Shown: positions 40,217 through 45,151 of the stretch, piece after piece | Layout: every line of letters begins with the position of its first letter | Numbering within the stretch: the first letter of the stretch is position 1 | Assembly (NCBI GenBank): GCA_002284915.1 | Contig: CP015606.1 | Coordinates: forward strand, 682,001 to 746,000 | Length of the DNA: 64,000 bases | Reading direction: 5' to 3' | Origin: Actinobacteria bacterium IMCC26077 | GTDB lineage: Bacteria; Actinomycetota; Actinomycetes; Nanopelagicales; Nanopelagicaceae | Notes under the pieces: generated by a model | What the model was told of the DNA's origin: nothing | What the model saw: the letters and a program-made list of their open reading frames with translations, nothing else | Database searches by the model: none | Made by a program: the position numbers and the translations under genes

Positions 40217-40261
40217 GTGCGTCGTGACGGGCTCGAACCGCCGACCCGGTGATTAAGAGTC
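40217..40261 (+). repeat. left att-like 45-bp direct repeat
   Basis: Identical to 42553-42597. It covers the tRNA-Lys anticodon loop to 3' end read on the minus strand; identity stops at both edges. Confidence 0.9.
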
Positions 40262-40300
40262 GGTCAGGAACATTTCGCGGGTGCGAAACCCTTCCTGACC
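40262..40300. repeat. nested inverted repeat inside the tRNA-Lys copy
   Basis: GGTCAGGAA (40262-40270) is the exact reverse complement of TTCCTGACC (40292-40300), and TTTCGC (40273-40278) of GCGAAA (40283-40288), enclosing the loop GGGT. This gives a long two-step hairpin on either strand. Confidence 0.85.
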
Positions 40301-40354
40301 AGCCTTTCTGAACTCGCTTACGCTCGCTCAGCAAGTCACCGTGCTCTACCAACT

Positions 40355-40512
40355 ATCTTTCAAGAGGAATTATATGCCTTTTGCAAATTTAAAAACAGGA
40401 CCTACTGATTACCTATCAGTGGTATCGACCCCCACTTGTTAATTTCTTCGCCCGTATGTTGGTTACTCCCAATACGGATATTTCACCTAAATTGTCACTG
40501 CATTAGCAAAAG
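40355..40512. other. intergenic DNA inside the element
   Basis: AT-rich DNA without a convincing gene. A 22-codon frame (ATG 40374, preceded by AGAGGAAT) is visible but has no recognisable product. No tRNA or strong terminator is seen. Confidence 0.4.
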
Positions 40513-40750
40513 TTAATCCAAGTAAATGAGCATTGAGTTGAAGCCATAACTACCTGCTTCCCACACAATGTGACCAGTGAAGGATTCTGTAGCTTCGACA
40601 CGCCATCTAGCGGTGCTCAAATGGGCACTTCCAAGGGAGAGGTTTGACCCGGGGTTATTAAATTTGGGTCCAATACTCATATTTAGAGTCTGCCCAAAAA
40701 TATCTGTTATGACAGTTATGGTGTCGGAGGATGAGAGTACCTTGGGGGCT
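40513..40750 (-). pseudogene. possible 3' remnant of a beta-rich protein gene
   Basis: The minus-strand frame is open and ends TAA at 40513. It would encode alternating hydrophobic/polar stretches such as WRVEATESFTGHIVWEAG and YGFNSMLIYLD, which look like genuine beta-strand protein rather than shadow coding. No start with a ribosome site is seen, and further upstream the frame runs into the oppositely oriented secreted-protein gene. It is most likely the C-terminal end of a gene cut off during rearrangement; no family was recognised. Confidence 0.3.
40738..40743 (+). promoter_or_regulatory. -10 box TACCTT, probable leaderless promoter
   Basis: TACCTT ends 7 nt before ATG 40751. The host-type promoter inside the element suggests that the cargo gene can be expressed. 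Confidence 0.45.
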
Positions 40751-41971
40751 ATGAAGAAGTCGCTGTTATCGCTGATAGTCCTGTCTCTTGCCCTTGGGCT
40801 GCCAACGCAAGCAACTGCCACTACCAAGCAATCTAAATTTCAACAAGTTAATAAAACTTTCCAGGCACTTCTGACCGATGGCAATAATGCCCTAGATGCC
40901 CTAGATGCAGAGTATGAGAAAAACATTGATGCCCTAGACGCTGCTTTGATATCAGCAACGCAATCAGCCGAGGTCGCTTCTCTAAATGAAATTCTTGCCG
41001 CAACAACTTTGTACTCACCACAAATTGCAGCCAGTACCAAAAAGATTGAAGATGCTAAAGCGAACTTTTCTACTGTCGCTAAGGTGAAAGTGCTATCCGC
41101 TTCTCTCGTTGGGTCCACTCGAATTAATCAATATTTGAAATGTCCGGCAGATACTGTCCAACCGGGCGGAGCAGGCACTGGAGATTTAGCAGTCAATTAC
41201 TGCAGCAACGACGGTACTTATCCGCGTCCTGGCGACAAATCTAAAAAAGTAATTGGGGCGACTGTTGGCGGATACGATTGGCAGAAAGGCGATTTTACCG
41301 AAATAGTGATTTGGTCAGTAATTCAATGCATTGGCATAACTAATTGTGGCGGGACAGAAGCATTAGACAATGCGATTGCTGAAGGTGCCATCCAGTTACT
41401 AACTCCGATTGATTTTGAAACAACTCGCTCTTCTTTAAAAATCGAGACTATTAACTTGGCAAGTCTAAATACAAAATATGGCGAGGCTAGGAAAAAGGCT
41501 GAAGCAACACGAAGTGAAACAGTTGCTCGGGCAACCTCTGCCAGACAATCACAGTTAGATGACCTAACAGAAATTTATCAGGACAAGAAGGATGCATTAG
41601 AGATACAAGCAAGCATCGCAGAGGATGCGGTAGCCGCAGCCAAACGTGCCTCTAAAGACCCAGAAATATTTGATAAAGCATTTACAGTTGCGTATAAGTT
41701 TGAATACAACAGAAGAATGTTAAGTGAATTAGCAGATACTGAATGGTCTGGAACTTTGACTTACAGAACAATTAATTCACTAGCAAAAATTGCAAGACTT
41801 GCGGATACTGCAGATTCAATTGCTGCTAAGTATTCATACAAGAATGCTTCGGCTTTCAATTCAAGCATCGGTATTGGATTCACAGGTGAACCTGAATTTA
41901 GAGCCACTTTGAAGGTTGTAGTGGCGAAGTATCAGAAAGCCACCGGCACACGAATCGCTATTAGCGCTTAA
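40751..41971 (+). CDS. secreted helical protein of unknown function (element cargo)
   Basis: A 406-residue protein with a clear Sec signal peptide (MKKSLLSLIVLSLALGLPTQATA) and no further membrane segment. After it, about 30-110 and 240-330 are Ala/Glu/Lys-rich and probably coiled coil (DALDAEYEKNIDALDAALI; AEATRSETVARATSARQSQL). Between them is a compact part with three or four Cys residues (CPADTVQPGG, YCSNDGTYP, CIGITNCGG) likely to form disulfides. I recognise no family. ATG 40751 is chosen for the signal peptide and -10 spacing. It is the only complete gene in the decayed element. Confidence 0.78.
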   Translation: MKKSLLSLIVLSLALGLPTQATATTKQSKFQQVNKTFQALLTDGNNALDALDAEYEKNIDALDAALISATQSAEVASLNEILAATTLYSPQIAASTKKIEDAKANFSTVAKVKVLSASLVGSTRINQYLKCPADTVQPGGAGTGDLAVNYCSNDGTYPRPGDKSKKVIGATVGGYDWQKGDFTEIVIWSVIQCIGITNCGGTEALDNAIAEGAIQLLTPIDFETTRSSLKIETINLASLNTKYGEARKKAEATRSETVARATSARQSQLDDLTEIYQDKKDALEIQASIAEDAVAAAKRASKDPEIFDKAFTVAYKFEYNRRMLSELADTEWSGTLTYRTINSLAKIARLADTADSIAAKYSYKNASAFNSSIGIGFTGEPEFRATLKVVVAKYQKATGTRIAISA

Positions 41972-42024
41972 CTGGGCTACTCAATTTATTGTAAAACGTC
42001 AGTGGCTAGGTGGAGAATGTCGGT

Positions 42025-42360
42025 ATGGCGAAAGTAGACCCGCACATAGCCGAAGCCTTGATGTTGAATGCTGGGTATAAGCCATTGGAACCGTATATAA
42101 AATCGCACCAAAAATGGAAATGTTTACATATCAGTTGTGGCGAGGTTGTTTATCCTTCCTATCACGGTATCTCTCAGGGTCAAGGTGGTTGCCTTTCGTG
42201 TGGTCGTAAAATAACCGCAGATAAAAGACGTTTATCGGAAGCGATGACTATTGAAATAATGTTGGATGCAAAATTACAACCGTTAGAACCCTACAAGTTT
42301 GCGTTGGAGTTCAACACTTGGAACCTGGTCAATTTCAAGGTTTCCTATCAGTGGTTCTAA
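42025..42360 (+). pseudogene. truncated repeat-type zinc-ribbon protein
   Basis: The frame (111 codons from ATG 42025, GGTGGAG upstream) begins with a treble-clef-like repeat: MLNAGYKPLEPY then WKCLHISCGEVVYPSYHGI and GGCLSCGRK, with two Cys pairs. A second repeat starts with MLDAKLQPLEPYKF, but its Cys/Trp part is missing: from about codon 90 the sequence (ALEFNTWNLVNFKVSYQWF) is just the antisense of the integrase stub. The family of such repeats is found in phage and island genes, often near nucleases. The gene was cut by a deletion. Confidence 0.7.
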
Positions 42361-42453
42361 ATGGCGCCGATAAAGGCGCTTGTAATCGTGCAATGTTTTA
42401 GGACGAATATTTAAAACTTCCCAAAGAGTTTGAGTCCATTCATTTACTTTCAT
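42283..42453 (-). pseudogene. tyrosine recombinase (integrase) N-terminal stub
   Basis: A 56-codon minus-strand frame starts at ATG 42453 with GGAAAGG about 10 nt upstream. The product, MKVNEWTQTLWEVLNIRPKT then LHDYKRLYRRHLEPLIG and NLEIDQVPSVELQRK, matches the core-binding (SAM-like) domain of phage-type integrases: the Tyr-rich helix, then H-x-x-P-x-x-G. It stops at TAA 42283 soon after the junction with the zinc-ribbon gene. The catalytic domain (R...HxxR...Y) is absent. Its place 100 bp inside tRNA-Lys is the normal integrase position. Confidence 0.75.
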
Positions 42454-42552
42454 TTCAATAAAACCTTTCCGCTAAGGAAAGACTTATCGATAGTAAATCA
42501 CCAAGTCATCAGTGATTTTTTCAACAATTCGAGTGCACTTTTACATTCAAAA

Positions 42553-42597
42553 GTGCGTCGTGACGGGCTCGAACCGCCGACCCGGTGATTAAGAGTC
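42553..42597 (+). repeat. right att-like 45-bp direct repeat
   Basis: The exact copy of 40217-40261, lying in the 3' part of the functional tRNA-Lys. Confidence 0.9.
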
Positions 42598-42626: not shown

Positions 42627-42777
42627 AGCTACCTGATCTGCCAGACGCAGGGAAGTAACGTCGGGACGGCACAATCTACCCGTCTCCTAACTTTCGCCAA
42701 AACTCAACTATTTACTCTTTGAGTTGGGGTTACCCCATATTTATTTCGCCATTGGAGGAATCGCCGCCCCGGAGCCC

Positions 42778-42807
42778 TTGTAGCTATTTTTCCCTGGGTC
42801 ATACACT
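42778..42807 (+). promoter_or_regulatory. candidate -35/-10 promoter of the Pro/Gly repeat gene
   Basis: TTGTAG (42778-42783) and TACACT (42802-42807) are 18 nt apart. Transcription start near 42814 would give a leader of about 36 nt carrying GGGAGAAAG before ATG 42850. Around 42690-42720 an AACTCAA/TTGAGTT inverted repeat lies upstream; its role is unknown. Confidence 0.35.
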
Positions 42808-42849: not shown

Positions 42850-45024
42850 ATGACAGCAGCACCTCCTCCTCCACAGGATCCGGGCGCTGGCGCACCTCCT
42901 CCGCCACCCCCGCCTCCTCCAGGAAACTTTGCGCCTCCTCCACCACCGCCTCCAGCGGGTGGAAATTTCGCGCCACCACCACCTCCTCCTGGTGGCAACT
43001 TCGGTGGACCAACCGGCCCAGCGCCAACCGCGCCACCTCCAGGAAATTTCGCACCACCACCGCAACCACCAACAGGAGACTTCGGTGGACCTGGCGGACC
43101 AGGAATGCCACCACCACCTCCCGGCGGGTTCGGTGGACCCGGCGGACCAGGAATGCCACCACCACCTCCCGGTGGACCCGGCGGACCCGGCGGACCAGGA
43201 ATGCCACCACCACCTCCCGGTGGATTCGGTGGACCTACCGCTCCAGGAATGGTGCAGACCGCTTCCGGGGCTTGGATAGCGCCTCCAAAGGATGCTGCGG
43301 GAAATAATTTGCCTCAAGATCAGGCTAACCAAGCGATGGGCTTCGGCGGACCTAACGGTCCAATGGGTGGACCAATGGGTGGACCAATGGGACCTGGAAA
43401 CTTCGGCGGACCTAACGGTCCAATGGGTGGACCAATGGGTGGACCAATGGGACCTGGAAACTTCGGCGGACCTAACGGTCCAATGGGTGGACCAATGGGT
43501 GGACCAATGGGACCTGGAAACTTCGGCGGACCTAACGGTCCAATGGGTGGACCAATGGGTGGACCAATGGGACCTGGAAACTTCGGCGGACCTAACGGTC
43601 CAATGGGTGGACCAATGGGTGGACCAATGGGACCTGGAAACTTCGGCGGACCTAACGGTCCAATGGGTGGCCACGGCGGACCAATGGGACCTGGCGGTTT
43701 CGGTGGACCAATGGGTGGCCCGATGGGTGGACCAATGGGACCTGGCGGTTTCGGTGGACCAATGGGTGGCCCGATGGGTGGACCAATGGGACCTGGCGGT
43801 TTCGGTGGCCCGATGGGTGGCCCAATGGGTGGACCAATGGGTGGACCAATGGGACCTGGCGGTTTCGGTGGCCCGATGGGCGGACCAATGGGCGAAATGA
43901 TGGGCAAAATGTTCGGTGGTCCCGGCGGACCTATGGGCGCCATGGGCGACATGATGGGCAAGATGATGGGTGGACCTGGTGGCCCTATGGGCGGCATGGG
44001 TGGACCTATGGGTGGCCCGATGATGGCACCAAAGGGCGGATGGCAAAAAATGTCCGCAGAAGAAATCATGTCAGGCCGGAAGGACGATCCTTTCCGTCCA
44101 CCAGAGCCTCCAATGGAGCCACTACAACCAGATATGCAGGAGATCACCAAGGAAGTCTTCGGCGACAAAATTGATGATTTGATGAATCTAATGGCGCAAG
44201 CTGCTGGAACTCGTCAAGGTTTGAAACTTGTTCAGAACGTTCTCGGTGGAATCGTTCCTCGCGGCGGCAAAGACTTGCAACGCATTCTTTCGAAGGATGC
44301 AGACAAGATTGCTGAAGCGATCGAAAGTGATCCTCGTATGTTCGACATGCTCATGCACAAACTCGGTGAGACTAAAGCTGGACAACAGCTTCAAGATCTC
44401 TTGAAGAAGTCACCCGATGGAAAAGAACTCTTCGACGAAGTCGAAGCACAACTCGAAGAAGCGCTCGCTGAGTACAACGAAGAAGTGGCAGCGTACGAAG
44501 AAGAATTTGCTGCTTACGAAGAGCAATTCCAAGATTGGCAAGAGAACATGCAATCGGGGAACTTCGATCAGGGGCAAGGCGGCTTCGGTGGACCAATGGG
44601 CGGACCACAAGGCGGCTTCGGTGGGCCAATGGGCGGACCACAAGGCGGCTTCGGTGGGCCGATGGGCGGACCACAAGGCGGCTTCGGCGGACCTGGTGGA
44701 TTCGATCAAGGACCTGGAAACTTCGGTGGGCCACAAGGTGGATTCCCTGGACAACCTGCGACCTTCGGTGGACCAATGGGCGGACCACAAGGCGGCTTCG
44801 GCGGACCTGGTGGATTCGATCAAGGTCAAGGAAACTTCGGCGGACCACAAGGTGGCCACGGAAACTTCGGCGGACCACAAGGTGGGCCAATGGGCGGACC
44901 AGCTACTGCAGCAAATGGTGGATTTGCACCAACTGATGCTGCGGTCCCTGACGCAACCGATGCGGCTGCTCCTGCACCAGAGGCACCTGCTGCTCCTGCA
45001 CCAGAAGCACCACCACAAAACTAG
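42850..45024 (+). CDS. Pro/Gly-rich low-complexity repeat protein
   Basis: A 724-residue protein with no signal peptide, membrane helix or visible Cys. Residues about 1-140 are poly-Pro blocks separated by GNFA/GGNFGGP; 165-395 are Gly/Pro/Met repeats (unit FGGPNGPMGGPMGGPMGPGN); 398-575 form the only normal-complexity domain (EIMSGRKDDPFRPPEP, then EITKEVFGDKIDDLMNLMAQ and a Glu-rich probable coiled coil); 576-690 repeat GGPQGGFGGPM with FDQG spacers; the end is Pro/Ala-rich. GGGAGAAAG precedes the ATG. No family is recognised. A cytoplasmic scaffold or phase-separating protein is an inference; the Pro blocks could slow ribosomes and would call for EF-P. Confidence 0.85.
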   Translation: MTAAPPPPQDPGAGAPPPPPPPPPGNFAPPPPPPPAGGNFAPPPPPPGGNFGGPTGPAPTAPPPGNFAPPPQPPTGDFGGPGGPGMPPPPPGGFGGPGGPGMPPPPPGGPGGPGGPGMPPPPPGGFGGPTAPGMVQTASGAWIAPPKDAAGNNLPQDQANQAMGFGGPNGPMGGPMGGPMGPGNFGGPNGPMGGPMGGPMGPGNFGGPNGPMGGPMGGPMGPGNFGGPNGPMGGPMGGPMGPGNFGGPNGPMGGPMGGPMGPGNFGGPNGPMGGHGGPMGPGGFGGPMGGPMGGPMGPGGFGGPMGGPMGGPMGPGGFGGPMGGPMGGPMGGPMGPGGFGGPMGGPMGEMMGKMFGGPGGPMGAMGDMMGKMMGGPGGPMGGMGGPMGGPMMAPKGGWQKMSAEEIMSGRKDDPFRPPEPPMEPLQPDMQEITKEVFGDKIDDLMNLMAQAAGTRQGLKLVQNVLGGIVPRGGKDLQRILSKDADKIAEAIESDPRMFDMLMHKLGETKAGQQLQDLLKKSPDGKELFDEVEAQLEEALAEYNEEVAAYEEEFAAYEEQFQDWQENMQSGNFDQGQGGFGGPMGGPQGGFGGPMGGPQGGFGGPMGGPQGGFGGPGGFDQGPGNFGGPQGGFPGQPATFGGPMGGPQGGFGGPGGFDQGQGNFGGPQGGHGNFGGPQGGPMGGPATAANGGFAPTDAAVPDATDAAAPAPEAPAAPAPEAPPQN
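43341..43670 (+). repeat. perfect 60-bp tandem repeat, 5.5 copies
   Basis: Units start at 43341, 43401, 43461, 43521 and 43581 and are identical base for base; a sixth runs to 43670 before diverging. Each encodes 20 residues. Identity at third codon positions implies recent expansion or gene conversion. Confidence 0.97.
43690..43854 (+). repeat. 51/63-bp imperfect tandem repeats
   Basis: Units beginning CCTGGCGGTTTCGG start at 43690, 43741 and 43792, with the next at 43855. The first two spacings are 51 bp, the third 63 bp through an extra GGACCAATGGGT. They encode GPGGFGGPMGGPMGGPM. Confidence 0.9.
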
Positions 45025-45047
45025 TGTGAACTAGTTAGCTCTCCGAA

Positions 45048-45089
45048 CGAGGGTGGCGATCATTGCGATCTCCACCCTCGTTTCTTTTT
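45048..45089 (+). terminator. intrinsic terminator after the Pro/Gly repeat gene
   Basis: Stem CGAGGGTGG (45048-45056) pairs with CCACCCTCG (45072-45080), followed by TTTCTTTTT. Confidence 0.9.
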
Positions 45090-45151
45090 CCCACAATTCT
45101 CTGACCAAATTCGCGAGGAATATCAACTCTTCGTAATAGAGAATTGACGGT

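Follow-up and report, generated by a model that had tools for sequence, protein, structure and literature searches.

A Pro/Gly/Met-rich repeat protein with a conserved helical core beside tRNA-Lys: a candidate scaffold in streamlined planktonic bacteria

Mycoplasma terminal-organelle proteins of the HMW1/HMW3 type are cytoplasmic proteins of small-genome bacteria in which Pro-rich regions are combined with coiled coils. Pro/Gly-rich tandem repeats are found in secreted structural proteins. PopZ, the polar condensate scaffold of Caulobacter crescentus, is leaderless, is laid out as a short N-terminal helix, a 78-residue acidic/Pro linker and C-terminal helices, and forms tunable bacterial condensates through its helical oligomerisation domain and Pro-rich disordered region (PMC9512792). 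High combined Pro and Gly content has been linked to hydrated, disordered, elastomer-type self-assembly, and elastin and resilin join it to hydrophobic spacers, tandem repeats and expected disorder (PMC5703643). The gene described here, which lies in a 64,000-nucleotide stretch of DNA (the window) from a bacterium with a small genome and probably of fresh water, encodes a protein that resembles each of these systems in part. Like PopZ, it is leaderless and joins a putative helical self-association region to Pro-rich disordered sequence, but the layout of PopZ was not found, a central core being set here between two long, nearly uncharged P/G/M/F-rich flanks, and the host of PopZ belongs to another phylum. 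Among the matches returned from Pfam and NCBIfam there was no PopZ model, and these showed no sequence relation; the analogy is offered as a functional one, with no claim of homology to PopZ. With elastin and resilin the protein shares high Pro and Gly content and expected disorder (2P+G of 0.96 in the N-terminal flank and 0.72 in the C-terminal flank), but those are extracellular animal proteins, whereas the window protein is bacterial and leaderless and has a conserved domain predicted to be helical. Compared with the HMW1/HMW3 type, whose corresponding regions are acidic, the flanks are P/G/M-rich and nearly uncharged (4 K/R and 14 D/E in their 550 residues).

The features of the locus are collected in Table 1. 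A sequence-only reading of this DNA had reported a 724-residue Pro/Gly/Met protein with perfect 60-bp repeats and a strong terminator, and the open reading frame, five identical repeat units and the terminator were all confirmed. The ATG start is preceded by GGAGAAAGAAC, a good ribosome-binding sequence, and the stop is TAG. Behind the stop, RNA folding gave a hairpin of -27.3 kcal/mol (z -7.4), followed by TTTCTTTTT, and comparable hairpins stand behind the orthologous gene in the genomes G002, G003 and G028; consensus scans reported neither this hairpin nor the candidate promoter. No conserved operon partner was seen, and the gene has its own terminator. A near-palindrome, TGGGGTTACCCCA, at positions 42725-42737 upstream of the gene is kept in G002 and is a possible regulator site.

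Table 1. Features of the P/G/M gene and its flanking signals, in window positions.
Feature	Position	Strand	Basis and remarks
P/G/M-rich protein gene	42850..45024	+	724-codon ORF; orthologues in G002, G003, G028 and G049; core under purifying selection
Candidate promoter, TTGTAG-N18-TACACT	42778..42807	+	Read by eye; G002 match TTGTGG-N18-TACACT
N-terminal polyproline/glycine segment, residues 1-139	42850..43266	+	45% Pro, no K/R; G002 and G028 N-termini similar
Short conserved motif GMVQTASGAWIAPPKDAAGNNLPQDQANQAMGF in flank	43246..43344	+	Twice in G002; this gene only, 2/296 genomes
Perfect 60-bp repeat array, 5.5 copies, 20-residue unit FGGPNGPMGGPMGGPMGPGN	43341..43670	+	Repeat analysis
Imperfect GGPM repeats up to core	43671..44034	+	Periods of 51, 54 and 63 bp
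Conserved acidic core, predicted helical, residues about 396-575	44035..44574	+	Alignment, AlphaFold2, dN/dS
Heptad-tested part of long C-terminal helix (predicted)	44428..44553	+	a/d = F-E-L-L-Y-V-Y-F-Y-F-W-M
C-terminal G/P/Q/F-rich repeats, residues 576-690	44575..44919	+	Repeat finding, composition
Ala/Pro-rich tail ending EAPPQN, residues 691-724	44920..45021	+	Similar tails in G002, G003 and G028
Intrinsic terminator, hairpin and T-rich run (predicted)	45045..45090	+	RNA folding; relatives with similar hairpins

Gly makes up 30% of the whole protein, Pro 21% and Met 9%, and Cys is absent. Neither a signal peptide nor a membrane helix was apparent in its 724 residues, the highest 19-residue hydropathy mean being 0.57, which bears out its earlier description as cytoplasmic by sequence. 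The proteins of G002 and G028, whose N-termini are assembled, likewise begin without a leader. These properties argue against a structural protein of the cell surface or the extracellular space (an elastomer of the wall or of a matrix, for instance) that would leave the cell by a non-classical route, to which the likeness of the P/G-rich tandem repeats to those of secreted structural proteins would point. WXG100 (PF06013), the mark of type VII (ESX) substrates, had no matches in the window's genome (G000) while control genomes did match, which also speaks against export, though other routes are possible; a surface location is on balance improbable. Methionine makes up 19% of residues 160-395, which consist of GGPM repeats, and the regularly placed Met of GGPMGGPM sequences could bind soft metals such as copper. 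A role as a metal buffer is, however, at odds with the assembled N-terminal flank of G028, which is of the GNQGG type and has few Met, with the lack of Cys and with the absence of metal-related neighbours noted at the locus, and can be given hardly any credence.

The earlier account of Pro/Gly blocks around one acidic helical domain agrees with both the composition and the AlphaFold2 prediction. The core (residues 396-575) holds 39 D/E against 19 K/R and is 88-90% identical between the window and two congeners. Between members of the genus, the core differs at 47-64% of synonymous and 4-7% of non-synonymous sites, and because dN/dS is about 0.05-0.07 it is under strong purifying selection; the dN of about 0.04-0.08 against a dS of about 0.7-1.4 shows it to be a working protein. 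The structural reading of the core rests on ten core sequences in all, the alignment of which has 17 invariant positions, among them those of a proline motif, PP..P..P...D, and the Y and N of an EYN motif in the last helix. The structure prediction recommended in the sequence-only reading was run and gave an all-helical model (mean pLDDT 86.9) with seven helices of at least 10 residues, the last of 48, and the distant core of genus g6 (pLDDT 83.1) was predicted with nearly the same helix order and the same 48-residue end, with a short strand pair added ahead of the helices. In all ten family rows the a/d positions of the last helix are 83-92% hydrophobic, against 7-20% elsewhere, and 0-10 of 5000 shuffles do as well. 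The last helix, whose aromatic heptad is nearly perfect, is thus predicted to be an aromatic-rich coiled coil, which we regard as the most telling feature of the protein; we read it as a probable oligomerisation helix, though it could also pack within a single chain only.

The Pfam, NCBIfam, PHROG and PADLOC libraries yielded no credible family for the protein, and the earlier claim that it was undescribed holds for the families searched there. The core resembles CCDC93_CC, EzrA and Prefoldin_2 in its helical, heptad-type sequence, and these weak Pfam coiled-coil matches all fall under the Pfam curated cut-offs, while the PADLOC-DB defence profiles matched in 0 families. A sequence search of the PDB gave a best E of 0.012, against a short helix, Foldseek against the PDB and viral models gave nothing below E 0.6, and the best VIA-align result for the core, a Z of 4.2 to a helical protein, is not meaningful; the failure of these searches does not prove a new fold. 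In the paper library that was searched, no paper paired 'Nanopelagicaceae' with 'intrinsically disordered'.

Profile and protein searches placed the family in 9 of the 296 genomes of the order and in three of its 17 genera; the order consists of a single family, for which the 296 genomes stand as well, and its genomes are small. A sample of 396 genomes from the phylum gave a match in the window's own genome alone, and the rarity supposed from the sequence was thereby borne out. One close relative is VGAL01000046.1, an actinomycetote MAG sampled offshore at the surface. Another, the record CAMAPN010000024.1 (L014), titled as a Bifidobacterium breve MAG, carries the locus at 89% core identity, and its title looks mislabelled. 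An affiliation with Candidatus Nanopelagicales (acI) would fit. In genus g12, the genomes G015, G028 and G039 contain a copy of the core adjoining the argininosuccinate synthase gene, and this paralogue is without P/G/M flanks and bears instead a long, strongly acidic Glu/Val tail. The g12 paralogue loci are L024:9695-10549, L021:8211-9158, L020:11334-12194 and L025:2410-3155, the last of which (in G049) is broken over two frames. In genus g6 (G009 and G034), the core has other surroundings, with Met/Gly/Gln repeats before it and an Asp/Ser-rich tail after it (L022:2-1126 and L023:6006-7190, both cut in the repeats by contig ends). Opposite the g6 core gene, a 2437-codon frame with a hydrophobic start (L022:1484-8794) apparently encodes a very large exported protein. 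Across these sequences the core is the constant unit, with differing disordered flanks around it.

Flank sequence differs by genome, the units being GGPM in the window, GNQGG in G028 and GMPGG in G049, and the frame of G002 is intact, at about 712 residues, but has repeat units that differ from those of the window. The flanks of both sister genera, g1 and g12, retain high Pro+Gly, almost no K/R and regularly spaced Phe, and in both the N-terminus can still be recognised as MT..PPP and, after it, P.GAGAPPPPPPP; selection acts on the core, the flanks keeping composition and not sequence. Five base-identical 60-bp units occupy 43341-43640 (starts at 43341, 43401, 43461, 43521 and 43581), and the sixth copy, into which the exact period runs, differs at 24 of 60 bases. 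The perfect repeats claimed from the sequence are therefore present, but as a single array within a larger, imperfectly repetitive flank. Since the array copies show 0% divergence against 47-64% synonymous differences in the core between congeners, the array must have been homogenised or expanded after the species split, and the ongoing length change proposed earlier is supported in the form of recent repeat turnover. The short flank motif GMVQTASGAWIAPPKDAAGNNLPQDQ is kept in G002 in two copies and occurs nowhere else among the 296 genomes, and the internal motif GMVQTASGAWIAPP, sought in the same genomes, was confined to the P/G/M gene; the PMGGPMG DNA pattern is present in 2 of the 296 genomes and thus gave no sign of another gene family built on such repeats.

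The main rival to a scaffold holds that the core serves some partner as a binding or adaptor domain and that the flanks, as entropic spacers or solubility tails, grow by slippage under weak selection, with no condensate. Such an adaptor would be consistent with a core that is strongly conserved while flank sequence varies, with the g12 paralogue that does without P/G/M flanks and with the exact repeats, which indicate recent slippage or recombination. Set against this are the flank chemistry, which two genera have retained at a shared locus, and their common polyproline N-terminus; together these go beyond what neutral slippage predicts, and we consider the adaptor rather unlikely.

The sequence-only reading had allowed that the gene might be an artefact of repeat assembly or might have no relatives. 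An artefact is unlikely because the window's genome is one contig (1,551,612 bases) and orthologues have matching neighbours in two congeners and in one sister-genus genome, and relatives do encode the gene. It is uninterrupted in G000 and in G002, and the contigs of G003, G028 and G049 stop inside or beside the repeats, as in short-read assemblies. The order in the window is tRNA-Lys, the P/G/M gene, the gene of an HNH protein (GmrSD_C), P-II and an ammonium transporter. G002 has tRNA-Lys upstream of the gene and G003 has the HNH gene downstream, and in G028 the locus falls on two contigs, the first carrying tRNA-Lys with the 5' portion of the gene, the second the 3' portion with the HNH, P-II and transporter genes. 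In genera g16, g4, g10, g6 and g5, the distance from tRNA-Lys to the HNH match is about 140-250 bp, compared with 2.6 kb here, and this junction is an empty site. A single insertion in the common ancestor of g1 and g12 would be the simplest account, since the HNH tree unites these two genera (support 97/94); the g6 copy would then need loss elsewhere or transfer.

The 3' end of tRNA-Lys is repeated exactly over 45 bp, in direct orientation, at 40217-40261 and 42553-42597; this repeat is att-like, and the interval that it bounds (40217-42597, about 2.3 kb) holds an integrase N-terminal remnant (42283-42453, minus strand; PF14659, E 2.1e-6), a 464-residue ORF without a Pfam match (40577-41971) and a 116-residue Cys-containing ORF (42010-42360). 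The interval is a small integrated element, or the remnant of one, on the 3' side of tRNA-Lys. The integration hot spot named in the earlier reading is thus a real site that adjoins the gene, but the gene is not part of it, as the att-like repeats exclude 42850-45024. A phage- or island-derived protein carried by a tRNA-Lys mobile element would agree with a gene that starts 224 bp from tRNA-Lys with an integrated element on the far side, and with weak PHROG matches to a head scaffolding family (E 0.0013-0.0022). The gene, however, lies on the 5' side of tRNA-Lys, outside the att-like repeats, and at the same place in two sister genera, and no relatives were found in viral contigs, phages or plasmids; such an origin is very improbable.

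The reading that we prefer, tentatively and with slightly less than even confidence, is a scaffold in which the core self-associates and the P/G/M/F flanks provide a condensate or elastomer-like matrix. The leaderless protein would be located in the cytoplasm, the helical core, and especially its aromatic heptad helix, would most likely drive self-association, the two long, nearly uncharged disordered flanks would form a hydrated matrix around the assembled cores, and repeat number would tune flank length. This scaffold draws on the gene itself, the conservation of the core, the flank composition, the helical prediction, the heptad pattern and the homogeneity of the repeats; from these we infer that the protein oligomerises, phase-separates and stays in the cytoplasm, as well as any client or role that it would have in the cell. 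Such a layout is suggestive, though no proof, of a scaffold that could collect into droplets or gels, and composition by itself does not tell whether a condensate forms. The g12 paralogue, in which the core exists without P/G/M flanks, counts against the scaffold, as do the Met/Gly/Gln N-flanks and Asp/Ser-rich tails of g6, which would behave differently.

A bolder form of the scaffold, unlikely as it stands, is a lineage-specific organiser of a condensate or elastomer gel, with an unassigned helical fold, in which the aromatic coiled coil nucleates assemblies and the slippage-tuned P/G/M repeats set their material state; if true, it would serve a streamlined planktonic cell as a compartment or mechanical element in its interior. 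Long, repetitive, disordered proteins are expected to be lost from streamlined genomes, yet two sister genera have kept this one, at a single locus and with a strongly constrained core. If it self-assembles, the protein would offer a simple, genetically separable scaffold, a core with tunable repeats, for relating repeat number to condensate properties in bacteria, and it would give a first hold on how cells are organised in a group that has seldom been cultured.
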